64,000 nt of DNA, taken from Rhodobacteraceae bacterium Alg238-R152. GTDB lineage: Bacteria > Pseudomonadota > Alphaproteobacteria > Rhodobacterales > Rhodobacteraceae. How positions within the stretch are numbered: the stretch's first letter is position 1; the number at the start of each line of letters is the position of its first letter. A program made the translations under genes and the position numbers. The notes under the pieces are model-generated. The model made no database searches and was not told the origin of the DNA. It was given only the letters and a program-made list of their open reading frames with translations. Shown here in pieces: positions 27,010 to 38,218 of this stretch. The stretch is from positions 1-64,000 of the forward strand of contig UNRJ01000007.1 of NCBI GenBank assembly GCA_900537125.1, given 5' to 3'.

Positions 27010-28239
27010 TTAGCCGCGATACTTGGACAACAGCATGGAGCCGTTGGTGCCGCCAAAGCCAAAGCTGTTGGTCATCACCGTGTCCAGACCGGCGTTTTCC
27101 ACCAGATCAGTGGCCACTTCGCCAGGATTGATGGCCGGGTCCAATGTTTCCACATTGATCGACGGGGTGATGAAGTCCCCATCCAGCATCAGAAGACAGA
27201 AGATTGCTTCCAACGCACCCGCCGCGCCTTGGGCGTGGCCGGTCATGGATTTGGTGGACGAGATCGGAGGTGTGGTACCTTCGCCAAAGACACGGCGCAC
27301 AGCCTCAACTTCACCTACATCGCCAACCGGCGTGGAGGTACCGTGGGCGTTGATGTAGCTGACCTTGCGGTCTTCTGGTAGCGTGGCTGTGGCCAAACGC
27401 ATGGCGCGTTCGCCGCCTTCACCGGATGGGGCAACCATGTCGTGGCCATCAGAGGTTGCGGCAAAGCCAGTGACTTCGGCATAGATTTTCGCACCGCGGG
27501 CCAGCGCGTGCTCGAGGTCTTCCAGCACCACAATGCCGCCGCCGCCGGAGATGACAAAGCCGTCGCGGTCCGCGTCAAAGGCGCGGGAGGCTTTTTCCGG
27601 GGTGTCGTTATACTTGCTGCTCATCGCGCCCATGGCGTCAAACAGGCAGGACAGAGTCCAGTCGAGCTCTTCGCCGCCGCCAGCAAACATCACGTCCTGC
27701 TTGCCCATCATGATCTGTTCCGCCGCATTGCCGATGCAGTGCAGGGAGGTCGAGCAAGCCGAGGTGATGGAGTAGTTGATGCCTTTGATTTTAAAGGCGG
27801 TGGCGAGGTTGGCGGAAATGGTCGAGCCCATGCATTTTGGCACGGCAAATGGTCCGATGCGCTTGGTTGCGCCGGTTTTGGCCACGGTTTGATGCGCGGT
27901 CAGCATTGCCGAGGTGGATGGCCCGCCGGACCCTGCCACAAGGCCGGTGCGCTCGTTGACGATCTGATCCTCGGACAGACCAGCATCGGCAATCGCCTGT
28001 TGCATGGCGATATGGGCATACGCCGCGCCAGGGCCCATGAAGCGCAGGGTGCGTTTGTCGACCTGCGCTTTGATATCGATGTCGATATGACCAGCGACCT
28101 GACTGCGGAAGCCGTGCTCGGCCATTTCGGCACTGGCGGAAATGCCGGATTTGCCCGCTTTCAGCGAGGCGGTGACTTCTTCGGCATTGTTGCCAATAGA
28201 GGATACGATACCCAGTCCGGTAACGACGACGCGACGCAT
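27010..28239 (-). CDS. fabB: Beta-ketoacyl-ACP synthase I
   Basis: 409 residues. Condensing enzyme of unsaturated fatty-acid synthesis in the FabA/FabB pathway. Active-site Cys162 in TSACSTSLH; His residues in [11 protein letters not shown] and [12 protein letters not shown]-terminal [11 protein letters not shown]. The partner fabA lies 9.5 kb away on the same strand, whereas the two genes are usually adjacent. No fabI follows; the gene ends facing the nitronate monooxygenase. Confidence 0.93.
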
Positions 28240-28367
28240 GTGCGCTCTCCCTTAGTTTGTTGAGCACTATGTAGGGGATGAAGGGGGGGCGGCGCAAGGT
28301 AGGGCGTGGCGACAGGTCGCCTAGGGGCGGGAATTTTGAGACCCGATGGTTGGTGCCGCCGCCAGCC

Positions 28368-28417
28368 CCGGTGTTGGAGGCCGGCAGCGGCGCCGGTGTT
28401 GGAGGCCGGCAGCGGCG
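28368..28417. repeat. Two tandem copies of a 25-bp GC-rich unit
   Basis: A 25-bp unit beginning CCGGTGTTGGAGG is repeated exactly at 28368-28392 and 28393-28417, just 3' of the GFA gene (on the minus strand) and upstream of fabB. Confidence 0.8.
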
Positions 28418-28422
28418 CCGCA

Positions 28423-28830
28423 TCAGCCCGGCATTTTCTCAAATGCGGGAAGACCGTCTTCGAGGACAGTCGCGTTGAGTTTGCTGGAAACGTAGACGTT
28501 CACCTTGGGGGCAAACTCTTCTTGTTCTTTGATGTTGCCAGCGCGGATGCCCAGCATGCCTTCGCGGGCGGAGTTTTGGGTAAATAGCGGCGTGCCGCAG
28601 GTGCCGCAGAAGTGTTTGGTCATTGTGGTGCCCGCATCTGAGCCGTGCGAAAATGTTTTGGGTGTACCGGTGATTTTGACGTCATCCTGTTTCATGAACA
28701 TCAGTGTGGCATAGGCGCTGCCTGTGGAGTGACGGCAGGCGGTGCAATGGCAATTGGCCATGACCGGCACGTCGCCATCCGCTTCAAATGAGATTTCGCC
28801 GCAGAGGCAGTGACCTGTGAGATGTGTCAT
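28423..28830 (-). CDS. GFA family protein (CENP-V/GFA zinc domain)
   Basis: 135 residues from ATG 28830, with AAGGGA upstream; an open frame continues to 28968 but lacks conserved sequence. Zinc-binding Cys pattern: GHCLCGEISF, CHCTACR and FCGTCGTPL. The family is named after glutathione-dependent formaldehyde-activating enzyme, but most members are uncharacterised glutathione- or zinc-related proteins. Confidence 0.87.
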   Translation of the reverse strand: MTHLTGHCLCGEISFEADGDVPVMANCHCTACRHSTGSAYATLMFMKQDDVKITGTPKTFSHGSDAGTTMTKHFCGTCGTPLFTQNSAREGMLGIRAGNIKEQEEFAPKVNVYVSSKLNATVLEDGLPAFEKMPG

Positions 28831-29005
28831 GGGGTGTCCCTTGTTTGTTCGCGTTTTGTGGCACGAGACTAAGGGAAAGGTGACATTCATCAAGGTTTCT
28901 GGGGGCAGATCACTGAATGGTGTTTTGATTGCCTTGCGCAGGCGGCGTTTTGGTCGATTTGGAACCAACAGTGGAAGGGGCGGTCAAAATGGCGTCTGAA
29001 CCCGT

Positions 29006-29617
29006 CTAGAATTTAATGGCCTCAATGACTTGTGGCAATTTCTCTGCCAAGTTGATCCCAGGGCAGAGTGTGCTGGCATGCGTCTTGTGATGTCCGATGT
29101 GGTCCGGTGCAATATTATGTTGTGAGGACAGTTGTTCCAGAATTTCCGTTAAGGCGCGCAATTGAGCAGCGGTTGGCATCTCCACTTCGAAGTTGCCTTC
29201 AACCACAATCGCGATGTGGCCGGTGGGGTTATAGTTGGTGTTGGTGTCCCCGACAAAGGAAACCTCACGGCCTTCTGCCACCCGCCCGGAGGCACCGATG
29301 TAATAGTGATACGGCACATCCGACCAGGCTTTCTTTGATCGCCCATCAGCCAGTTTGGCGTTGCTTTGTGAGAAATTCTGAAGGGAGCGGAGTTTGGCTT
29401 CTAGGGGTTTGGATGGGTTTTGCCGGACAGCCGTGTGGTGAATTGTCAGAAATTTTGGTGTATGCGGGATTTGCGCAGACAGAGGTGGTTTTGCGCCCCA
29501 GGCGTCACGGGTCACGAGTTCCACCGCGGGACCTGCGGAGGGCAGTGCTGCAACAAGTGCCGCGATGATCAGAACGGCGGGTCTAGTTGCCTTTTTTGAC
29601 ATAGGCATCCGAAACAT
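29006..29617 (-). CDS. Peptidoglycan recognition/N-acetylmuramoyl-L-alanine amidase (Amidase_2)
   Basis: 203 residues from ATG 29617, chosen for the GAAGGAG upstream; it overlaps the protease gene by 35 bp. A signal peptide ends near residue 30 (AALPSAGPAVE). Amidase_2/PGRP zinc residues: IHHTA (His), GHHKTHASTLCPG (His and Cys). The Cys ligand, missing in non-catalytic PGRPs, is present, so it should cut the MurNAc-L-Ala bond. Probably periplasmic cell-wall hydrolase, co-expressed with the M48 protease. Confidence 0.87.
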   Translation of the reverse strand: MFRMPMSKKATRPAVLIIAALVAALPSAGPAVELVTRDAWGAKPPLSAQIPHTPKFLTIHHTAVRQNPSKPLEAKLRSLQNFSQSNAKLADGRSKKAWSDVPYHYYIGASGRVAEGREVSFVGDTNTNYNPTGHIAIVVEGNFEVEMPTAAQLRALTEILEQLSSQHNIAPDHIGHHKTHASTLCPGINLAEKLPQVIEAIKF

Positions 29618-30473
29618 ATTGTTTCACTCCTTCAAGCGCATGAAAGGCACTGCTGCGGCTGTTGGTGGCGACCACAACGGAGTAAAGGCCGTTGGAGAGT
29701 TTTGCATAACTATCGGTGTTTACCAATCTGACCGGCAGGCCTTGAGCTTGCAGCCTATGCAATAAAATCTCAGCCTGAGCAACGGACGCATGTGGGTACG
29801 AGCCCGCGATCACAAACCAATCCCCCGCCACACTGGAGGTTGTCGGAGTTGACGGTTCATCTTTTGGGGTGGAGCGGATCACTTGACCGCCGGTGGCGTC
29901 TCGCCAGCCAACCGCCACAGCTTCCAATCGGGCGCCTCTGGGCGGGTGGGTGTCGCTGCCTGAAGCGGACAATTGTTTGAACAGCCATTGCGCGTCTTGC
30001 AGGCTGCCCCCCAGTTTTCCAACCGCAAAACCGGCAAATTTGTCAGCCTCAAGTTCGGTGGGCGGACGGCTGCCACCTGCTTCAAGCGTGTGGCCGTTGA
30101 GGTGGTGCGCAATTTCGTGGCTCAGCAAGGCCACTGCTGCCCAGCGGTTGTTCGCGATTTCGTTCTGGATCCAGTCTTCGCTGTACACAATCAAGCGCTG
30201 GTCACCGTCAATCACTGCCGCAGCATTTGGCACATTGCCGGCATAAATCTGAAATCGGGGAACAAGCCCGACGGTGGACAGGATATCGGCCACAAGGTCT
30301 TCGGCTTGTTTGCTAGAGGAGAACGAATAGATTTGTTCATCAAAGACTTCGTCGGGGGCAAAGGAACAGAGGTGGTCTTGTCCCCCAAGGTTAAGCAGCG
30401 TTTGCGCCGACACTTGAGGCGTGAAAAGGCTGAGAGAGAACAGTGCGGCGCTGAATTTTGTAAGGGTCTTCAT
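29583..30473 (-). CDS. M48-type metalloprotease with C-terminal SPOR domain
   Basis: 296 residues. Signal peptide (about 1-23, ending QVSAQ). Zinc site HEIAHH with the third ligand Glu in ELEADKFAG, typical of M48 peptidases such as BepA/YfgC. The C-terminus (about 215-290; FVIAGSYPHASVAQAEILL) is SPOR-like, a domain that binds denuded septal peptidoglycan. This pairing with a cell-wall amidase points to envelope or septum maintenance (inference). Confidence 0.82.
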   Translation of the reverse strand: MKTLTKFSAALFSLSLFTPQVSAQTLLNLGGQDHLCSFAPDEVFDEQIYSFSSSKQAEDLVADILSTVGLVPRFQIYAGNVPNAAAVIDGDQRLIVYSEDWIQNEIANNRWAAVALLSHEIAHHLNGHTLEAGGSRPPTELEADKFAGFAVGKLGGSLQDAQWLFKQLSASGSDTHPPRGARLEAVAVGWRDATGGQVIRSTPKDEPSTPTTSSVAGDWFVIAGSYPHASVAQAEILLHRLQAQGLPVRLVNTDSYAKLSNGLYSVVVATNSRSSAFHALEGVKQYVSDAYVKKGN

Positions 30474-30544
30474 GGTGTTTCCGAAACGTGATGACAGTGT
30501 CTTTGTTACCGCAACTTCACCAAAGACGATTGGAATTTCAAGGT

Positions 30545-31351
30545 TTATTGACGCACAATGGCCTCCCCGCGTGGATGGATGTGCGCCAATCTTGCATCCA
30601 CGTAGAGCACGTTGCGCTGCGTGCGCTCCAAATCTGTGAGCACGCGGTAGGTTTCTTCGATTTGGGGCAGGGCGAGGATGTGCTCTGGTTTGCCGTCCGC
30701 TAGGATCGCCCCGTCGCGTAGGAGCACGAGGCGATCGCAGAATTTTGCCGCGAGATTGAGATCATGCAGCGCGGCCATCACCACGGGTTTCTTGCGGTCC
30801 ATCTCGTTGCGGATTGAGGTCAGGATTGAAAGCTGATGGTGCAAATCAAGGGCGCTGGTGGGTTCATCAAGCAGGATCACATCTGGCGCACGCACGATGG
30901 TTTGGGCCACAGCGACCATTTGCGCTTGCCCGCCGCTGAGATCCGCAACGCCGCGGTTGGCGAGGTGGGACAATCCAAGGGCATGTAGTGTGTCGGAGAC
31001 GCGGTCGAGGTTGTCATCGTTCACTCGCCAGCCGGTGGTTTGTTTGAGCGCCAGCAGCACGCTTTCAAACACCGAGAGCAGCGCGTTGCAGCCATAGGCT
31101 TGCGGCATATAGGCGACACGTTTGGCGCGATCTTTGCGGCCCAGACAGGTGACGTCTTCACCTGCGATGGTGATGGCGCCTTTGCTGGGCGTGATCAGGC
31201 CCGCGATGGTTTTGAACAGGGTGGATTTGCCAGCAGCGTTGGGGCCGATGAGGCCAACAAAGGCCCCGGGGGGGATGTCGGTGACGGTCACATCTTGCAA
31301 GACATTGGTGCGGCCGTAGCCTGCGGAGAGATTGGCGATGGTCAGGGTCAT
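30545..31351 (-). CDS. ABC transporter ATP-binding protein, iron-complex uptake (FecE-like)
   Basis: 268 residues from ATG 31351, which overlaps the permease stop by 4 bp with GGAG upstream; the long open frame before it is a shadow of the permease gene. Walker A GPNAAGKST, signature LSGGQAQM, Walker B VILLDEPTSALD, switch His in AALHDL. Powers the FecCD-type permease upstream. Confidence 0.93.
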   Translation of the reverse strand: MTLTIANLSAGYGRTNVLQDVTVTDIPPGAFVGLIGPNAAGKSTLFKTIAGLITPSKGAITIAGEDVTCLGRKDRAKRVAYMPQAYGCNALLSVFESVLLALKQTTGWRVNDDNLDRVSDTLHALGLSHLANRGVADLSGGQAQMVAVAQTIVRAPDVILLDEPTSALDLHHQLSILTSIRNEMDRKKPVVMAALHDLNLAAKFCDRLVLLRDGAILADGKPEHILALPQIEETYRVLTDLERTQRNVLYVDARLAHIHPRGEAIVRQ

Positions 31352-32409
31352 TGCAGGCGCTCCCGTCGTGAGCTGAGGATGATCGAGATAAAGATCGGCA
31401 CGCCAATCAGCGAGGTGATGATGCCAATTGGGTAGATGATGCCGGGGGTGATGGTTTTGGAGATCAGGGACGTGAGCGAGAGCACCAGTGCGCCCACCAA
31501 GGCGGAGAGCGGCACGAAGTAGCGTTGGTCTTCGCCCACCAGCATGCGGGCAATGTGCGGCCCAACAAGACCCACAAAGCCAACAGTACCGACAAAAGAC
31601 ACGGCGGTGGCCGCAAGCAGGGAGATGCAGATCAGCATTTCCACGCGCAGGCGCCCAACGTCCACGCCCATGCTTTGCGCTGTAGTCTCGCCCATGCGCA
31701 GGGCGGTCATCGGCCACGTGCGGTAGAGGCTGAAGGGGATGGCAAAGCACAAGAGGATGGTGCCAAGGCCGATCTTTTCCCAGCTGGCGCGGCTGAGAGA
31801 GCCCATCATCCAAAACACAATGCGGGCGATTTGGTCCTCGGATGCCATGTATTGCATAAGCGCCAGCAGGGCGGAGAAAGTGAAGAAAATTGCGATGCCA
31901 AACAGGATCATGGTTTCGGACCCAACGCCTTTGATGCGGGTGGCGAGCAGGATGAAGCCGCAGGTGAACAGTGCAAAGACAAAGGCGTTTACGGTCACGA
32001 GGAGCGGGCCAACGGCGGGGATAACGCTGATGCCCAGCACAATGGCGAGCGAGGCGCCAAAGCTGGCGGCGGCGGAGACGCCCAACGTAAACGGTTCGGC
32101 CAGCGGGTTGTTGAGGATGGTTTGCATCTGTGCGCCAGCAACAGCCAGAAGCGCACCAACCAAGACGGCGGTCACGGCAACGGGCAGGCGGTAGTCCCAG
32201 ACAATGACTTTGAGGCGCGCCCCGTGGGACATTGGGTCAAACAGCACCTCGGCGATGGTGGACAGGCTGTAGCCGCCCGGGCCGGTGGTGATGTCCAACA
32301 GGAAGCTCAGGCACAGAAGGCCAAACACGGCGGCGATGACGCCGTACCGACGCGCCACACGCGCCACATAATCGTGGCGCAACGCCACGGGATCAACATT
32401 GAGGGTCAC
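31348..32409 (-). CDS. FecCD-family iron-complex ABC permease
   Basis: 353 residues, about 10 membrane helices. FecCD/BtuC-like signatures: GALLAVAGAQMQTILNNPLAEPFTLGVS split over the TM2-TM3 region and VGLVGPHIARML near the ATPase-coupling helix. Second gene of the binding protein-permease-ATPase operon. Substrate is likely a ferric siderophore or heme; not decidable from sequence alone. Confidence 0.92.
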   Translation of the reverse strand: MTLNVDPVALRHDYVARVARRYGVIAAVFGLLCLSFLLDITTGPGGYSLSTIAEVLFDPMSHGARLKVIVWDYRLPVAVTAVLVGALLAVAGAQMQTILNNPLAEPFTLGVSAAASFGASLAIVLGISVIPAVGPLLVTVNAFVFALFTCGFILLATRIKGVGSETMILFGIAIFFTFSALLALMQYMASEDQIARIVFWMMGSLSRASWEKIGLGTILLCFAIPFSLYRTWPMTALRMGETTAQSMGVDVGRLRVEMLICISLLAATAVSFVGTVGFVGLVGPHIARMLVGEDQRYFVPLSALVGALVLSLTSLISKTITPGIIYPIGIITSLIGVPIFISIILSSRRERLQ

Positions 32410-32481
32410 GAGGGTGGTCTCCGGTGGGGGGGAAGAGAGTCCGGCCCCGCAATGTGCGGAGCCGGGTGTTGGCGGGGGTGA

Positions 32482-33636
32482 TTAGCCGCCAACCTCCAAA
32501 CTGCCCCAGAACACGCCGGAGTAGTCGATCGGAAGGAACTTATCATGCAATTCCTTCATTGAGGTCTCTGGGTCCACGTCCTCAAACAGCTCCGGGTGCA
32601 TCCATTTGGCAAAAGCCTGCATGGCCACAAAGTGATACGGGCTGTTGTAGAACTGGTGGTAGACCGAGTGGAAACGGCCGTTTTTCACCGCCGACAGCTC
32701 GCCCCAACCGTCACGGGAGGCTAGTGCGCTCAGGCGCTCTTGTACCTGTGCTTGTTCAGCTTCGTACCCAAACAGCACAGCCGTGGTGGCCGGGTTGGCC
32801 TCAGACCAGTTGGCGCCAGTGCCTATGATGATTTCCGGATCATCCGCAAAGATCGCCTCAAGGCTGACGCTGGTTCGGAAGCCCGGGAATTTTAGGGAGC
32901 CCCAGTTGCGGCCACCGGACATATCAACCAGACGTCCAAGGTTGGCTGCACCAAAGGTGTTGCAGCATTTGTTTGGGTTATAGCCCGCGGCGCTTTCGAT
33001 GAAGACAACAGGGCGGTCTTCAACTGGGATCTGCTCCACGCGGGAATAGATCAGCTTCATCTGCTGTTGATAGTAGTCGCTAAAGGCGTCCGCATTGTCA
33101 CGTTTGTCAAAAATGCGGCCCATCAGCTGAATGCTGGACACGGTGTTTTGGGTTGGGTTTTGACGGAAATCGACAAAGACGGTGGCGACGCCAGCCTCTT
33201 CGAGCTTCTCGATGATGCCGCTTTCCTGCGCCTTGAGCAGGTTGCCGAGGTTCATAAACACCACTTCGGTGCCTAGCGTGATCACAGCCTCAAGGTTCCA
33301 CTCATCCGAGTAGGGGCTGCCAAAGCTCTTAAGATCAGCAATCTCGGGAAATTTTTCGAGGTATTTGCGGTAGGCGTCCGGGTCATATTTGACCATGTCG
33401 TCTTTCCAGCCAACGACACGCTCAAATGGGTTTTCTTGATCCACAACCGCAATGGAATAGATCATGCGGCCTTCGCCGATGACAATTTTGGACGGGTTTT
33501 TCTCTACTTCAACAACGCGGCCTGCAACGTCGGTGACAGTGATGGTCTCTGCGAGGGCGATCGTGGCGGACGTTGCGGTAAACGTCATAGCTGCGGCAGC
33601 GGAGCAAAGACCCCGTGTCAGTGTACTGACTTTCAT
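32482..33636 (-). CDS. Periplasmic iron-complex binding protein
   Basis: 384 residues from ATG 33636 with AAGGAG 6 bp upstream. A signal peptide ends near residue 29 (TIALAE). FecB/FhuD-like class III binding fold: VTDVAGRVVEVEKNPSKIV, and a long backbone helix. A Cys-Cys pair (NKCCNTFG) is unusual. Upstream there is a palindrome CAAGTACTTG (33709-33718) that could be an operator. No TonB receptor gene is adjacent. Confidence 0.88.
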   Translation of the reverse strand: MKVSTLTRGLCSAAAAMTFTATSATIALAETITVTDVAGRVVEVEKNPSKIVIGEGRMIYSIAVVDQENPFERVVGWKDDMVKYDPDAYRKYLEKFPEIADLKSFGSPYSDEWNLEAVITLGTEVVFMNLGNLLKAQESGIIEKLEEAGVATVFVDFRQNPTQNTVSSIQLMGRIFDKRDNADAFSDYYQQQMKLIYSRVEQIPVEDRPVVFIESAAGYNPNKCCNTFGAANLGRLVDMSGGRNWGSLKFPGFRTSVSLEAIFADDPEIIIGTGANWSEANPATTAVLFGYEAEQAQVQERLSALASRDGWGELSAVKNGRFHSVYHQFYNSPYHFVAMQAFAKWMHPELFEDVDPETSMKELHDKFLPIDYSGVFWGSLEVGG

Positions 33637-34229
33637 GGGTCTCTCCTTGGATGTGTCGCGATCAGAGCCGCGAACTAGGCGCAAAAGAAGGTAGTCTATC
33701 AAAAGAGTCAAGTACTTGTGGCGTTTTTTACGAGACCTGAGCAAAGAGGATAGGAGGGCTGTGTGTGGCCGTTGTATTAAGGGGGGCGAGTGAAAGGGGC
33801 TCAGACTGCGCAGGCGTCAGTTGGTAAGGACTGCTTCCAGCCCATATAAGACATTCGCCCAGGCGCAGCGATGGCGCCGCTGCAAGCGTCGAGGAAAATG
33901 CGAGAATTCCCGAAAGCGGACCTTCAGATCGGTGAAACAGGGCAGTGAGATGGTGCGCTGCGCTTAAGGTCAGGAAGGCGTAAAAGCGGTTAGTCAAACA
34001 GGTCTCTTCAGGCGACCGCTCTTCGCAGTGAAGCGGGCTCCCAAGCAATTTTATTTTGACCGTAGGTATTCACTTGCAAAACGGCCAATGCGCGTGTTTC
34101 AGAACACGGCCCCCGACGCGGGAAAAACAAGTTTCGGAAATTCCATCAAGAATTAGTATTTCCTCGCCCCTTTAAGGTCCACGTTGCCGCATGGAGACGA
34201 CCGGAAGGAAGCGACAATCATTTTGGTTG
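33637..34229. other. 593-bp stretch without a recognised gene
   Basis: Holds the upstream region of the iron transporter and the 3' flank of the AlbA_2 gene. One minus-strand open frame (33728-34048) has no codon or domain support. The section 33870-34050 reads like degraded sequence (for example CGAAAGCGGACCTTC). No tRNA, repeat pair or integrase seen. Confidence 0.5.
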
Positions 34230-35000
34230 CTATTCAACACGACATCTAATCAACGCTTCGATTGCTCTCGCTTTAATTTCAGCGCTTCCATTTCCGTTGC
34301 GCACATAAACAATCTCATCATTCATCTGTGTTGGCCGTCTACACACAGTAATCCCTTGTGTCCTGGGCCTGACTATAACGACACAAACCGTCGCTCCATC
34401 TTGACAAACGAGACGCCGAGAGATGTGCCCAATGCAGCTACGATAGTCATAAATGTATTTTTCAAGACATGCAGAAAAGAAGAGCTCCCAGGTGTCGAAG
34501 CTCTTTTCCCTCCCTGGAATGTAATCAAGTTCACAATTTATTCCGCAAATTTCTCGATCATCACTCACTCCAACCAGCAAGGTGCCTCCATCAGAGTTTA
34601 AAAAGGCGCAGATCGTTTTGATGCATTCAAATACCAAATCATCAGACACCCAATTTTCTCGCGGAACTTTCTCATTTCCAAATACGCGCTTCTTGAGGTA
34701 GAGCGATTCCTTGAATTCAACTTCCTGCCCTTCCTCCGACTGAATCGCATCATGCAAAGCTTGAACAAAGCGCTCGGTGGTTTTTATTCTCGATACTACG
34801 CGTGTCTGATCCAGCTCTCCCTCCGAGACTGGCGGGTTTAGTTCCAACCCTTTCTCAAGCAACGCCTCCGTAATTTGTGTACAAGCGGATATGGCACCCA
34901 AATCAGAGAAGTCTGGCAACTTCCGCAGGTCGTTTATCGTACATTCGAGCCCAGCTTGATAAGCCTGAACCACCAATTCCAGGAAATCCCCCGAGGCCAT
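34230..35000 (-). CDS. AlbA_2/Schlafen-type putative ATP-/nucleic-acid-binding protein
   Basis: 256 residues. The AlbA_2 (Schlafen-core) pattern covers about residues 90-250: E95-F-K-E, N135-S-D-G-G-T-L-L-V-G-V-S-D-D, and a late Y232-V-R-N-G. The N-terminal 85 residues are helical and not recognised. Its ATG overlaps the stop of the DUF262 gene by one base (TAATG), so the two are translationally coupled. The pair is visibly more AT-rich than its surroundings, suggesting transfer. A defence role is inferred. Confidence 0.8.
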   Translation of the reverse strand: MASGDFLELVVQAYQAGLECTINDLRKLPDFSDLGAISACTQITEALLEKGLELNPPVSEGELDQTRVVSRIKTTERFVQALHDAIQSEEGQEVEFKESLYLKKRVFGNEKVPRENWVSDDLVFECIKTICAFLNSDGGTLLVGVSDDREICGINCELDYIPGREKSFDTWELFFSACLEKYIYDYRSCIGHISRRLVCQDGATVCVVIVRPRTQGITVCRRPTQMNDEIVYVRNGNGSAEIKARAIEALIRCRVE

Positions 35001-36928
35001 TATAAAATTTTTGTCAGGGAAACAAGTTGGTCGGCGATCAAGTTCGCGCGACGTTTCCAGAACGCCTCAATTCCAGACATTCCGCTTTTCAAAAGATTGA
35101 AGCACTCTTCGTCTATGAAAACTTCCTCAAAGGAGGCCCTAATCGCTCCTTCATATTTTATGCCTTTCTCAAGAAAGAATGTCGCTGGACTTTTCGATTT
35201 CCACAAATTGTTCACCTCACGAGATATTGGCATCAAATTTGATATCGAATCGACGTAATCTTCCGAAACTGCATCTTTTCCCAACAAGCTAAAGTAATCA
35301 CCAGAGGCGTTCTCGCGGCACCACCTTTTCGGATAAATGTGGTGCAACTCAACACGGCTACCTTCTTCTCCTATTAACATTTTACCCATGAAATCTTTAG
35401 ATGCGGAAGCAATCATCGGCAGAAGGAGGGCAGACTGAATTGCTCCTCCAGGACGCCCATTCAGCAAGAGTTCAACCAACTGTTCATGAGATCGGACCTC
35501 AGAGTGCGGGATTTCACGACTGATTTGCTCTTCAGCAAAGGTTAGCCATTCGGTTCGGCTTGTAAAGTTTCCCTTGGAACCAAGGATGGACTTTAGCAAG
35601 TTCATATCAGTTCCCATTTGGCTCAGAAATCCCTGATCGTATCTCGTCGCTAGAGCGTTTCTCCAAAAAAATGCACGATAAAGCAAATCGAGATCGCCTA
35701 CAGACCAACTCCCGTGTGTGCTCTCTGGATCAAAGCGCTTGTGCCACCGGAGGCCGACATAGATCCCTGATGAAATTGGATACGGGCATTGCAGATATCC
35801 GAATGCACCACCGGCAACCACATTTTGGAATTCGCCAACGAATTGAGAAAATTCCTCGGTATGGTTTACCAGGTGAGTCCAGTGCTCAACCGGAGTCGCC
35901 AACAAGTCCGATGACTTAACCGAAGTAATGGACTTGGACTTGGACGATCCAGCCACCCTCCGCGCCTTAGGCTTGGTGGGGAGATCGGTAAGAGCAACAA
36001 AGCAAGCAGTTGAAATCTGGGCTATTAGCTCAGGTCTTTTTTTGGGCATCGCCCAACCTATTGCGCCGTCGAGTTGCGATAGGTCATCCATCCAGTCGCG
36101 CAAGTGCAATTTATCATTGGTGTCCCTCAATAGCCAAGAATTGATGAGATCAACCGTTGAGACCTTCATGCCTGTGAGGTTAAGTGTCTCAAAAATTTCA
36201 CAGATTTGCCCGAGGTCGTACCTTTGAGGCACTGTGCACGCGCCGAGTTTTGTCTCGGTAATGCCTTCAAAGGCCTGTTGCAAAATTTTGTCTCGCCGAG
36301 CAATCTCATCTTGATCTGGAAACTCTCCGTCGGGATAGATCGTTTCATCCTTTAGCTTTTGGATGTATCCATACCACTGCTGAAGGAGAGACTGATTTTT
36401 TTCGAAGCTAGATAGCGGGAAATACCCCTTTGCAATGCAAGCCTCTAAGTTTGTCAACCCTTCCTTTTGAATTTCGACCTTCTTCTTAAATACTACCTTC
36501 TCAAGCGGATCCTTGAGAGAGGCATTTAAGAAGTATTTACCCGAATATTTGTTTCCGCCAAAAGTCGGTGCAAATCCCGAAAATGCCATTGCCAGAGCAG
36601 TACTCCTTTGGCGACCATCGAGAATAGCCATAACTTGGGTGGGATTGGCTTCGGGCTTGCCAAATTCAAGTACAACCTTGGTTTTGGATTGACTATTCCA
36701 GTCGTCAATAGATAGCGGCTCAAGCTCTATGTGAGAGTCAGATGGCTGCTCCCATAGGGTCACCATACCAATGGGATAGCCATCGATCACAGACGTTGCC
36801 AGCCCCGCGACTGCAGAGGTGTCCCAGACAAATTCCCGCTGAAACCTGGGCACCTTCCACTTCCTGCTGCTTAGGTTCTCAAGAACCTCTGAGATAGAAA
36901 GTTCGGAAATTCTGATGCTCGATGCCAT
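35000..36928 (-). CDS. DUF262/DUF1524 protein (GmrSD-like nuclease)
   Basis: 642 residues from ATG 36928; the frame runs on to 37063, but the family-like N-terminus begins with the chosen start (IRISELSISEVLENL). DUF262 (ParB/Srx-like) has D104-G-R-Q-R, the nucleotide-handling motif. DUF1524, near the C-terminus, has the HNH-like H529-H530-I-Y-P and N564. The combination is that of type IV modification-dependent enzymes (GmrSD) and SspE. The middle 300 residues are not recognised. Low G+C relative to neighbours. Confidence 0.85.
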   Translation of the reverse strand: MASSIRISELSISEVLENLSSRKWKVPRFQREFVWDTSAVAGLATSVIDGYPIGMVTLWEQPSDSHIELEPLSIDDWNSQSKTKVVLEFGKPEANPTQVMAILDGRQRSTALAMAFSGFAPTFGGNKYSGKYFLNASLKDPLEKVVFKKKVEIQKEGLTNLEACIAKGYFPLSSFEKNQSLLQQWYGYIQKLKDETIYPDGEFPDQDEIARRDKILQQAFEGITETKLGACTVPQRYDLGQICEIFETLNLTGMKVSTVDLINSWLLRDTNDKLHLRDWMDDLSQLDGAIGWAMPKKRPELIAQISTACFVALTDLPTKPKARRVAGSSKSKSITSVKSSDLLATPVEHWTHLVNHTEEFSQFVGEFQNVVAGGAFGYLQCPYPISSGIYVGLRWHKRFDPESTHGSWSVGDLDLLYRAFFWRNALATRYDQGFLSQMGTDMNLLKSILGSKGNFTSRTEWLTFAEEQISREIPHSEVRSHEQLVELLLNGRPGGAIQSALLLPMIASASKDFMGKMLIGEEGSRVELHHIYPKRWCRENASGDYFSLLGKDAVSEDYVDSISNLMPISREVNNLWKSKSPATFFLEKGIKYEGAIRASFEEVFIDEECFNLLKSGMSGIEAFWKRRANLIADQLVSLTKIL

Positions 36929-37711
36929 AATTGCCCGCAATCTGTAATTTTTCAGCCCGAGCATGAAGGCTCGCCTGTTTAGTCCATGTACGCATGCGTT
37001 GAATCGCATGAGTTTGGTCAAGCATAGTTTCTGAGTCGGCCTAACCGCAATGGCTTCGGGCAAAGAAATTTGCGCCCTTCAGTCAATGTGATCTTTCTAT
37101 CGATCACCTTGAAGTTGAGGTGAGCCCGCAATTTGGGGCTTTCCCTGTAATTTGTATAAATGCCGATTTAGCGCATAAGTAGCTTCAACAGTCGGTGATG
37201 AGCCAACGGTGCTGCAGCAACGGTTCTCTCTTTCTAAAAACCTTGAATGCTCCAGGCGATAACGTAGACGGTCAAACAGAAATCTCTCCGAGATGGCAGA
37301 AATGTCTTCGGCAGCGGATCCCAGTTGCCTGTAACTTGCAGCAAGTGCGAAGTCTCGGCTCTGGTAGACCCAAAGTTTCCTTATCCGCCAGGGAGACAGC
37401 CCGCTATAGGCTGGCACCTCCCATCCGGTGGTCTACTCGGCGCGTGTCGAGGTCGCATACCTATCAATTTATGAATTTGATAGCTTTGTCTGCGCTGTCG
37501 CCGGTCCATCAGGAATCAATACTGCACTTTCGACGAATGGCAGCTCCTTCGGACGGCATCTCAGAAAAAGTTACGGCGGATCGTGTCAAAAGGCAGAGTT
37601 TGCAAAGTTCGCTTTCTGCGCATTGCCGTCATAGAGCGCTGAAAATACAAAATCTCCCGAGGATTACATCGGGAGCTCTTGCTAAGAGTGCTTCTGGTTT
37701 GCCTGCGCTGC
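36929..37711. other. 783-bp stretch without a recognised gene
   Basis: Upstream region of the DUF262 gene and the 3' flank of fabA. Open frames on both strands (37097-37417 minus, 37195-37746 plus) lack starts with ribosome sites, codon bias or known domains. It looks like eroded non-coding or pseudogene sequence at the edge of the transferred block. Confidence 0.5.
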
Positions 37712-38218
37712 TTACTCTGTCGCCAGACCAACCTTCATGTCTTTGACTGCATAAATCTCTTCGCCGTCTGCGAACACGGTGCCATTGGCGACGCCGAGCT
37801 TGAGCTTGCGGTCAATGATGCGGGTGTATTGTACGTTGTAGGTCAGCATTTTGCGATCCGGTTTGACCATGCCTTTGAGCTTCACTTCGCCCACGCCCAT
37901 CGCCATGCCCTTGCCGGGCATGCCGCGCCAGCCGAGGCCAAAGCCGGTCAGTTGCCACAGGCCGTCAAGACCCAGGCAGCCGGGCATGATTGGGTTGCCG
38001 GGGAAGTGGCAATCAAAGAACCAGAGGTCTGGTGTGATGTCGAATTCTGCAAGCACGTGGCCTTTGCCAAAGTCACCGCCGTCTGCGGAGATGTCGGTGA
38101 TGCGGTCCATCATCAACATCGGTGGCATTGGCAGTTGGGCATTGCCGGGACCGAACAATTCGCCACGGGCGCATTTCAGCAGGTCGTCTTTGTCAAAGCT
38201 CGTGGGATAGTCGGCCAT
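37712..38218 (-). CDS. fabA: 3-hydroxydecanoyl-ACP dehydratase/isomerase
   Basis: 168 residues. Introduces the double bond in unsaturated fatty-acid synthesis. Active-site His71 (DCHFPGNP) and Asp85 (GCLGLDGLWQL), both at family positions. Divergent from irr, the common alphaproteobacterial arrangement; fabB, usually next, is displaced by 9.5 kb. Confidence 0.96.
   Translation of the reverse strand: MADYPTSFDKDDLLKCARGELFGPGNAQLPMPPMLMMDRITDISADGGDFGKGHVLAEFDITPDLWFFDCHFPGNPIMPGCLGLDGLWQLTGFGLGWRGMPGKGMAMGVGEVKLKGMVKPDRKMLTYNVQYTRIIDRKLKLGVANGTVFADGEEIYAVKDMKVGLATE

Follow-up and report, generated by a model that had tools for sequence, protein, structure and literature searches.

Contig UNRJ01000007.1 of Rhodobacteraceae bacterium Alg238-R152 carries, within the stretch of 64,000 nucleotides analysed here (the window, whose positions serve as coordinates throughout), two tightly coupled minus-strand genes at 34230-36928. 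They encode a GmrSD-family protein with a DUF262 domain and an HNH motif (gene 1) and an AlbA_2 protein of the Schlafen/SAMD9 type (gene 2). Here, we show that both proteins keep the active-site residues of their families, that DUF262-HNH and AlbA_2 domains are repeatedly paired or fused in separate lineages, and that the pair has an accessory distribution. We consider it about an even chance (probability roughly 0.5) that the pair is a horizontally moved, two-gene anti-phage system, in which a BrxU/GmrSD-like enzyme against modified DNA is joined by a Schlafen-type RNase as a second effector.

Two coupled genes with conserved active-site residues

The two open reading frames (ORFs) are intact and lie exactly where a first-pass annotation, made from the sequence alone, had placed them; its picture of an AT-rich pair with a TAATG overlap, bearing DUF262/HNH and AlbA_2 domains and bounded by gene-free sequence, holds up. 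The ORFs are more than a product of chance, as four homologous pairs keep both frames (identity 46-74% for gene 1 and 27-57% for gene 2) with invariant motif residues. The ATG of gene 1 at 36928 fits the N-termini of its homologues; a TTG-started frame would extend to 37063. The G+C content of the pair is 46.9%, compared with a mean of 57.5% (standard deviation 1.9, minimum 53.2%) over 550 overlapping stretches of 2.7 kb that lie in the window but outside the locus, and in all six loci of the split type, with separate genes for the two proteins, the pair lies below its own flanks.

Gene 1 resembles BrxU and GmrSD in its order of motifs, with FQREFVW starting at residue 29, DGRQR at 104, FETLN at 246 and HHIYP at 529, followed by N564 and N573. 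The QR and FxxxN motifs of DUF262, as well as H530, N564 and N573 of the HNH part, are invariant in the five gene 1 proteins aligned; the Pfam GmrSD_C model reaches 0.047, below its cut-off. BrxU is the only significant structural match of gene 1, whose structure model is poor (pLDDT 56.9), and its closest solved relative. Gene 1 differs from the BrxU/GmrSD enzymes in its translationally coupled AlbA_2 partner, in the low identity outside DUF262 and in reading DGRQR instead of DGQQR. This last change marks the whole split type, which has DG[R/K]QR in six of six DUF262 proteins, whereas the other rows with the motif have DGQQR (53/53).

Gene 2 has the AlbA_2 fold with the acidic triad of the Schlafen/SAMD9 (t)RNases (E90, E95 and D147, placed by motif spacing). 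SLFN_AlbA_2 is its sole Pfam match at E values up to 1, and it matches once; mammalian Schlafen nuclease domains hold two lobes. The protein ends 15 residues past this domain, has no HATPase part and carries its extra region at the N-terminus. The AlbA_2 alignment holds 15 of 16 rows, the Haloquadratum row having been dropped by the motif filter; by eye, it agrees with the others in E, E, K and D. PADLOC matches of gene 2 to pAgo (0.013) and Cas6 (0.019) and an NCBIfam match to Hfq (0.064) were taken as noise.

Recurrence as split pairs and as fusions

How widely does this combination occur? A scan of species genomes with six short peptide patterns from gene 1, which undercounts and thus gives lower bounds, found at least 43 loci, four of which match essentially over the full length (45-74% identity), and an AlbA_2 homologue of gene 2 lies immediately downstream in all four. 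A sixth split-type pair (L104) came from a domain co-location search and is hence not an unbiased case. The six junctions range from a 4-base overlap to a spacing of at most 8 bases, with constant gene order. The pairing, which recurs both split and fused, is hence not peculiar to the window.

The fused form is best seen on pSymA of S. meliloti, where DUF262, the HNH motif and AlbA_2 form a single chain of 711 residues. Full-length relatives are found on plasmids of Haloquadratum walsbyi and the halophilic archaeon DL31, and at least three of the 427 matching plasmid records cover 100% of the S. meliloti protein. Further one-chain DUF262-HNH-AlbA_2 proteins are encoded in four other genomes (G735, G684, G594 and G713), and AlbA_2 follows the HNH part in the fused proteins, at their very C-terminal end. 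In G735, the fusion gene overlaps the next gene, for a type I restriction subunit R, by one base (L110:7865-13140).

In 299 genomes of the phylum, a same-strand AlbA_2 lies within 3 kb of at least nine of 149 DUF262 matches (with 150 PF04326 matches listed on the AlbA_2 side), compared with 0.11 expected under random placement, an expectation that ignores the clustering of defence genes. The nine comprise two split-type pairs (the window and G458), three fusions, two looser arrangements (G567 with AlbA_2 upstream and G699 with two intervening ORFs) and two near-identical loci, including L111, where a canonical GmrSD gene and a Schlafen-HATPase_c_4-HTH gene overlap by 4 bases beside type I restriction-modification (R-M) genes.

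AlbA_2 is also found on other front ends. An N6-methyltransferase on a plasmid of Pseudoalteromonas nigrifaciens, encoded beside type I R-M genes, ends in AlbA_2 (L050:3147-5498). In G553, a protein of 715 residues (L109:4513-6660) has a different front end followed by a C-terminal AlbA_2 that shares 60% identity with its counterpart in the S. meliloti fusion, and a short DUF262-like piece lies just upstream (L109:6977-7168). Such exchange of front ends is the pattern expected of an interchangeable effector.

The DUF262 tree holds 56 rows; it leaves out duplicate loci (L001, L045, L053, L057, L093, L096, L098 and L100), along with any row weaker than E 1e-10 or shorter than 180 residues. All six split-type proteins group in a single clade (100/100), and the fused proteins stand in three other places. 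The AlbA_2 link requires four changes on this tree; a single clade of all 13 AlbA_2-linked rows is rejected (approximately unbiased test, p = 3.8e-44). Several branches are long, some deep forks are open, and starred branches place the split clade and the fused L106. As it is less certain that L107 and L108 stand apart from the S. meliloti group, three origins are firmer than four. On this tree, DUF262-HNH and AlbA_2 appear to have been combined on several separate occasions, in bacteria as well as in archaea.

An accessory insertion between fabB and fabA

In the window, a 9.5-kb segment separates fabB from fabA (Table 1). Besides the pair, it encodes a GFA-family protein, an amidase, an M48/SPOR protein and a FecCD-type ABC transporter along with the binding protein of this transporter; no other defence gene was recognised in it. 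Of 78 listed fabA places, 30 were read for their spacing to fabB, including the window's own. Among the 29 loci of relatives, fabB lies less than 150 bases from fabA in 18 and about 0.9 kb away in two, and it was not found for nine, with 1.5 kb of sequence available. The interval is a variable spot; in a same-genus genome, two different genes occupy it. Counting the window's own genome each time, gene 1 homologues are found in 1 of 25 genomes from the genus, 2 of 195 from the order and 1 of 385 from the class. These rare homologues, together with the mostly adjoining fabA and fabB of relatives, identify the locus as an accessory insertion.

The flanks at 33745-34229 and 36929-37711 hold two ORFs that were tested (33728-34048 and 37097-37417), neither with a Pfam match. 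No non-coding RNA reached gathering score between 28000 and 38500, and a sigma-70 scan gave no sites where 3.7 were expected, which is uninformative. Similar-DNA searches for an integrase remnant at 36929-37711 gave a dispersed repeat of 30-47 bases and no plasmid match, and a search for repeats bounding the insertion found nothing beyond short two-copy families. The 30-47-base stretch, at about 37587-37633, is also present elsewhere in the window's genome and in further members of the genus; it is a possible dispersed repeat. The iron-type ABC transporter adjoining the pair (30545-33744) is itself rare, as matches to its binding protein occur in 4 of 80 genomes of the family, the window's genome among them (E <= 1e-60).

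The defence-island setting is modest. Among the four homologue loci from the pattern scan, one pair (L004) adjoins a transposase and type I R-M genes, two lie directly behind a phage integrase (L002, with a T7-type tail-fibre gene on the same stretch, and L005) and one has neither, adjoining a gene taken by eye for lepA (L003). The L104 pair adjoins a transposase. In plasmid records, gene 1 has nine distant matches, all below 60% identity, and gene 2 has three partial ones.

Table 1. Features of the gene pair and its surroundings in the window
Feature	Position	Strand	Evidence
Gene 1, GmrSD-family, 642 aa (N-terminal DUF262, long helical middle, C-terminal HNH/DUF1524-like motif)	35000..36928	-	
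Gene 2, AlbA_2 (Schlafen/SAMD9-type) protein, 256 aa	34230..35000	-	
TAATG stop/start overlap, one base common to both genes	34998..35002	-	
DUF262 / GmrSD_N domain, gene 1 residues 16-267	36128..36883	-	Pfam 3.8e-24
DGRQR nucleotide-pocket motif, gene 1 residues 104-108	36605..36619	-	DGQQR in other rows with the motif
HHIYP of HNH motif, gene 1 residues 529-533; H530 proposed catalytic	35330..35344	-	Alignment to BrxU
HNH asparagines N564 to N573, gene 1	35210..35239	-	Invariant in 5/5
N-terminal part of gene 2 with weak likeness to a winged helix, residues 1-73	34782..35000	-	
AlbA_2 domain, gene 2 residues 90-241	34278..34733	-	Pfam SLFN_AlbA_2 9.5e-16
E90 and E95, first two Schlafen triad acids	34716..34733	-	15/15 aligned domains
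D147, third triad acid	34560..34562	-	14/15 aligned domains
Accessory segment holding the pair, 9.5 kb	28240..37711	.	Between fabB 27010-28239 and fabA 37712-38218

Known systems, proposed mechanism and alternatives

The DUF262 domains of BrxU, SspE, TgvAB and GrwAB are regarded as sensors of DNA modification that use nucleoside triphosphates to govern the HNH nuclease (PMC10952713, PMC11411939, PMC12137116). The best PADLOC 2023 match of gene 1 is HEC-05 (4.9e-22, residues 9-119), which has been equated with BrxU (PMC11411939). None of the PADLOC 2023 models credibly matches gene 2, and those matching gene 1 cover DUF262/HNH only. PDC-M55C is the third-ranked PADLOC match of gene 1 (5.4e-11) and the best of the fused L106 (5.7e-64, residues 6-539), where AlbA_2 lies outside the match; the pair may overlap with the candidate system PDC-M55. 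The first-pass label of a GmrSD/SspE-like nuclease stands for the GmrSD family, whereas its SspE part gives way to BrxU. SspE and DndI share the DUF262-DUF1524 layout, and gene 1 has a weak PADLOC SspE match (8.8e-05), but these proteins act with phosphorothioation genes (PMC10952713). The DndC model TIGR03183 has no match in the pair's own genome, and SspE-like phosphorothioate sensing was set aside on this result, a weak one as control genomes also stayed below the cut-off and SspABCD was not searched.

Other systems come close in parts. The two-gene, GmrSD-like TgvAB and GrwAB of Vibrio likewise join a DUF262-HNH protein to a second gene, but according to the same sources their second proteins carry DUF262, whereas gene 2 has AlbA_2 without DUF262. 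VNG7073 is a fusion with the same DUF262-HNH core and an RNase-type domain, which is HEPN and not AlbA_2 (PMC3710099). BREX-associated Schlafen RNases are also encoded beside restriction-type genes, but have a C-terminal histidine-kinase-like part and a winged helix-turn-helix where gene 2 lacks the HATPase part; the L111 Schlafen-HATPase_c_4-HTH gene resembles them, and the same BREX survey lists GmrSD and Schlafen as separate accessory nucleases (PMC12839542). In a BREX cluster, an HTH/helicase-like protein with a Schlafen-like triad lies near brxX, in a place likened to that of brxU (PMC8777954). A pairing of DUF262/GmrSD with AlbA_2/Schlafen was not found described in the literature searched, outside which bioRxiv and most subscription papers fell. 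The first-pass annotation did not recognise this exact pairing as a named anti-phage system, which agrees with this result and with PADLOC 2023, in which no model credibly matches gene 2. We take it to be a GmrSD-type system with a Schlafen-type partner.

What might the two proteins do together? The DUF262 domain of gene 1 would sense modified invading DNA via nucleotide binding or hydrolysis and would license the HNH domain to cut it, as in BrxU and GmrSD. Gene 2 would be an RNase of the Schlafen/SAMD9 type, with tRNA as its most likely substrate. It would stay silent as long as gene 1 has neither engaged foreign DNA nor failed, and would then stop translation as a second line of defence. Several observations weigh against this proposal. 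GmrSD_C stays below the Pfam cut-off in all six split-type proteins, and, judging from the motif, the altered DGQQR may mean that nucleotide use differs or is lost. The triad residues are no proof of RNase activity, because the triad is common in the family and AlbA_2 domains also bind DNA (structure 7ksp is a SAMD9 domain with DNA). The gene 2 homologue of L104 (L104:4738-5526, genome G458) has N at the position of D147 beside a partner with DGKQR, and this homologue may be an altered or inactive member. An AlbA_2 profile was found within 3 kb of none of the 39 distant, partial gene 1 loci, some of them cut by contig ends, from which it follows that most DUF262 enzymes do without AlbA_2. Searches of viral contigs and phage records gave no phage-borne full pair: in viral contigs, the gene 1 profile found only three distant partial relatives, and no match came from the profile of gene 2, from gene 2 alone or from the S. 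meliloti fusion; gene 1 had none in phage records.

Gene 2 could instead be a nucleic-acid-binding helper without nuclease activity. Its AlbA_2 domain and winged-helix-like region would bind DNA and thereby position gene 1 on modified target DNA or stabilise it there, comparable to the second proteins of TgvAB and GrwAB that are needed for restriction. This seems rather improbable, as 14 of 15 domains from distant lineages retain all three Schlafen acids, beyond what binding alone would need, and the fused versions put AlbA_2 after the HNH part. Independent defence modules that merely travel together in a mobile cassette would fit the clustering of defence genes, the loose neighbours in G567 and G699 and the type I R-M operon that holds L111. 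The tight junctions in constant order in all six split-type pairs and the one-chain fusions in several lineages weigh against such a cassette, which is unlikely. The integrases directly upstream in L002 and L005 and the fused forms on plasmids would also suit a toxin-antitoxin-like or plasmid/prophage maintenance module, with gene 2 as an RNase toxin restrained by gene 1 and no role in phage defence; gene 1 retains complete DUF262 and HNH motif residues, unlike a plain antitoxin, and the window copy occupies a chromosomal spot, which leaves this explanation very improbable.

Beyond the anti-phage system proposed for the window, we tentatively suggest, with the odds against it, a recurrent bacterial and archaeal immune switch, in which GmrSD-type recognition of modified DNA would directly unleash a Schlafen-type tRNase. 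Restriction and translation shut-off would then be one unit, assembled separately several times, and the DG[R/K]QR of the split clade may control the switching from one output to the other.

Schlafens are antiviral RNA-cutting proteins of animals, and the usual view of type IV restriction enzymes is that they only cut DNA. The family has split and fused members, so that the coupling is testable, and the clade-specific change in an otherwise constant DGQQR makes the nucleotide step directly testable. If true, the repeatedly evolved link to a Schlafen-type nuclease would tie the sensing of DNA modification to abortive defence at the RNA level, and the pair would offer a prokaryotic setting for learning how Schlafen/SAMD9 domains are switched on.
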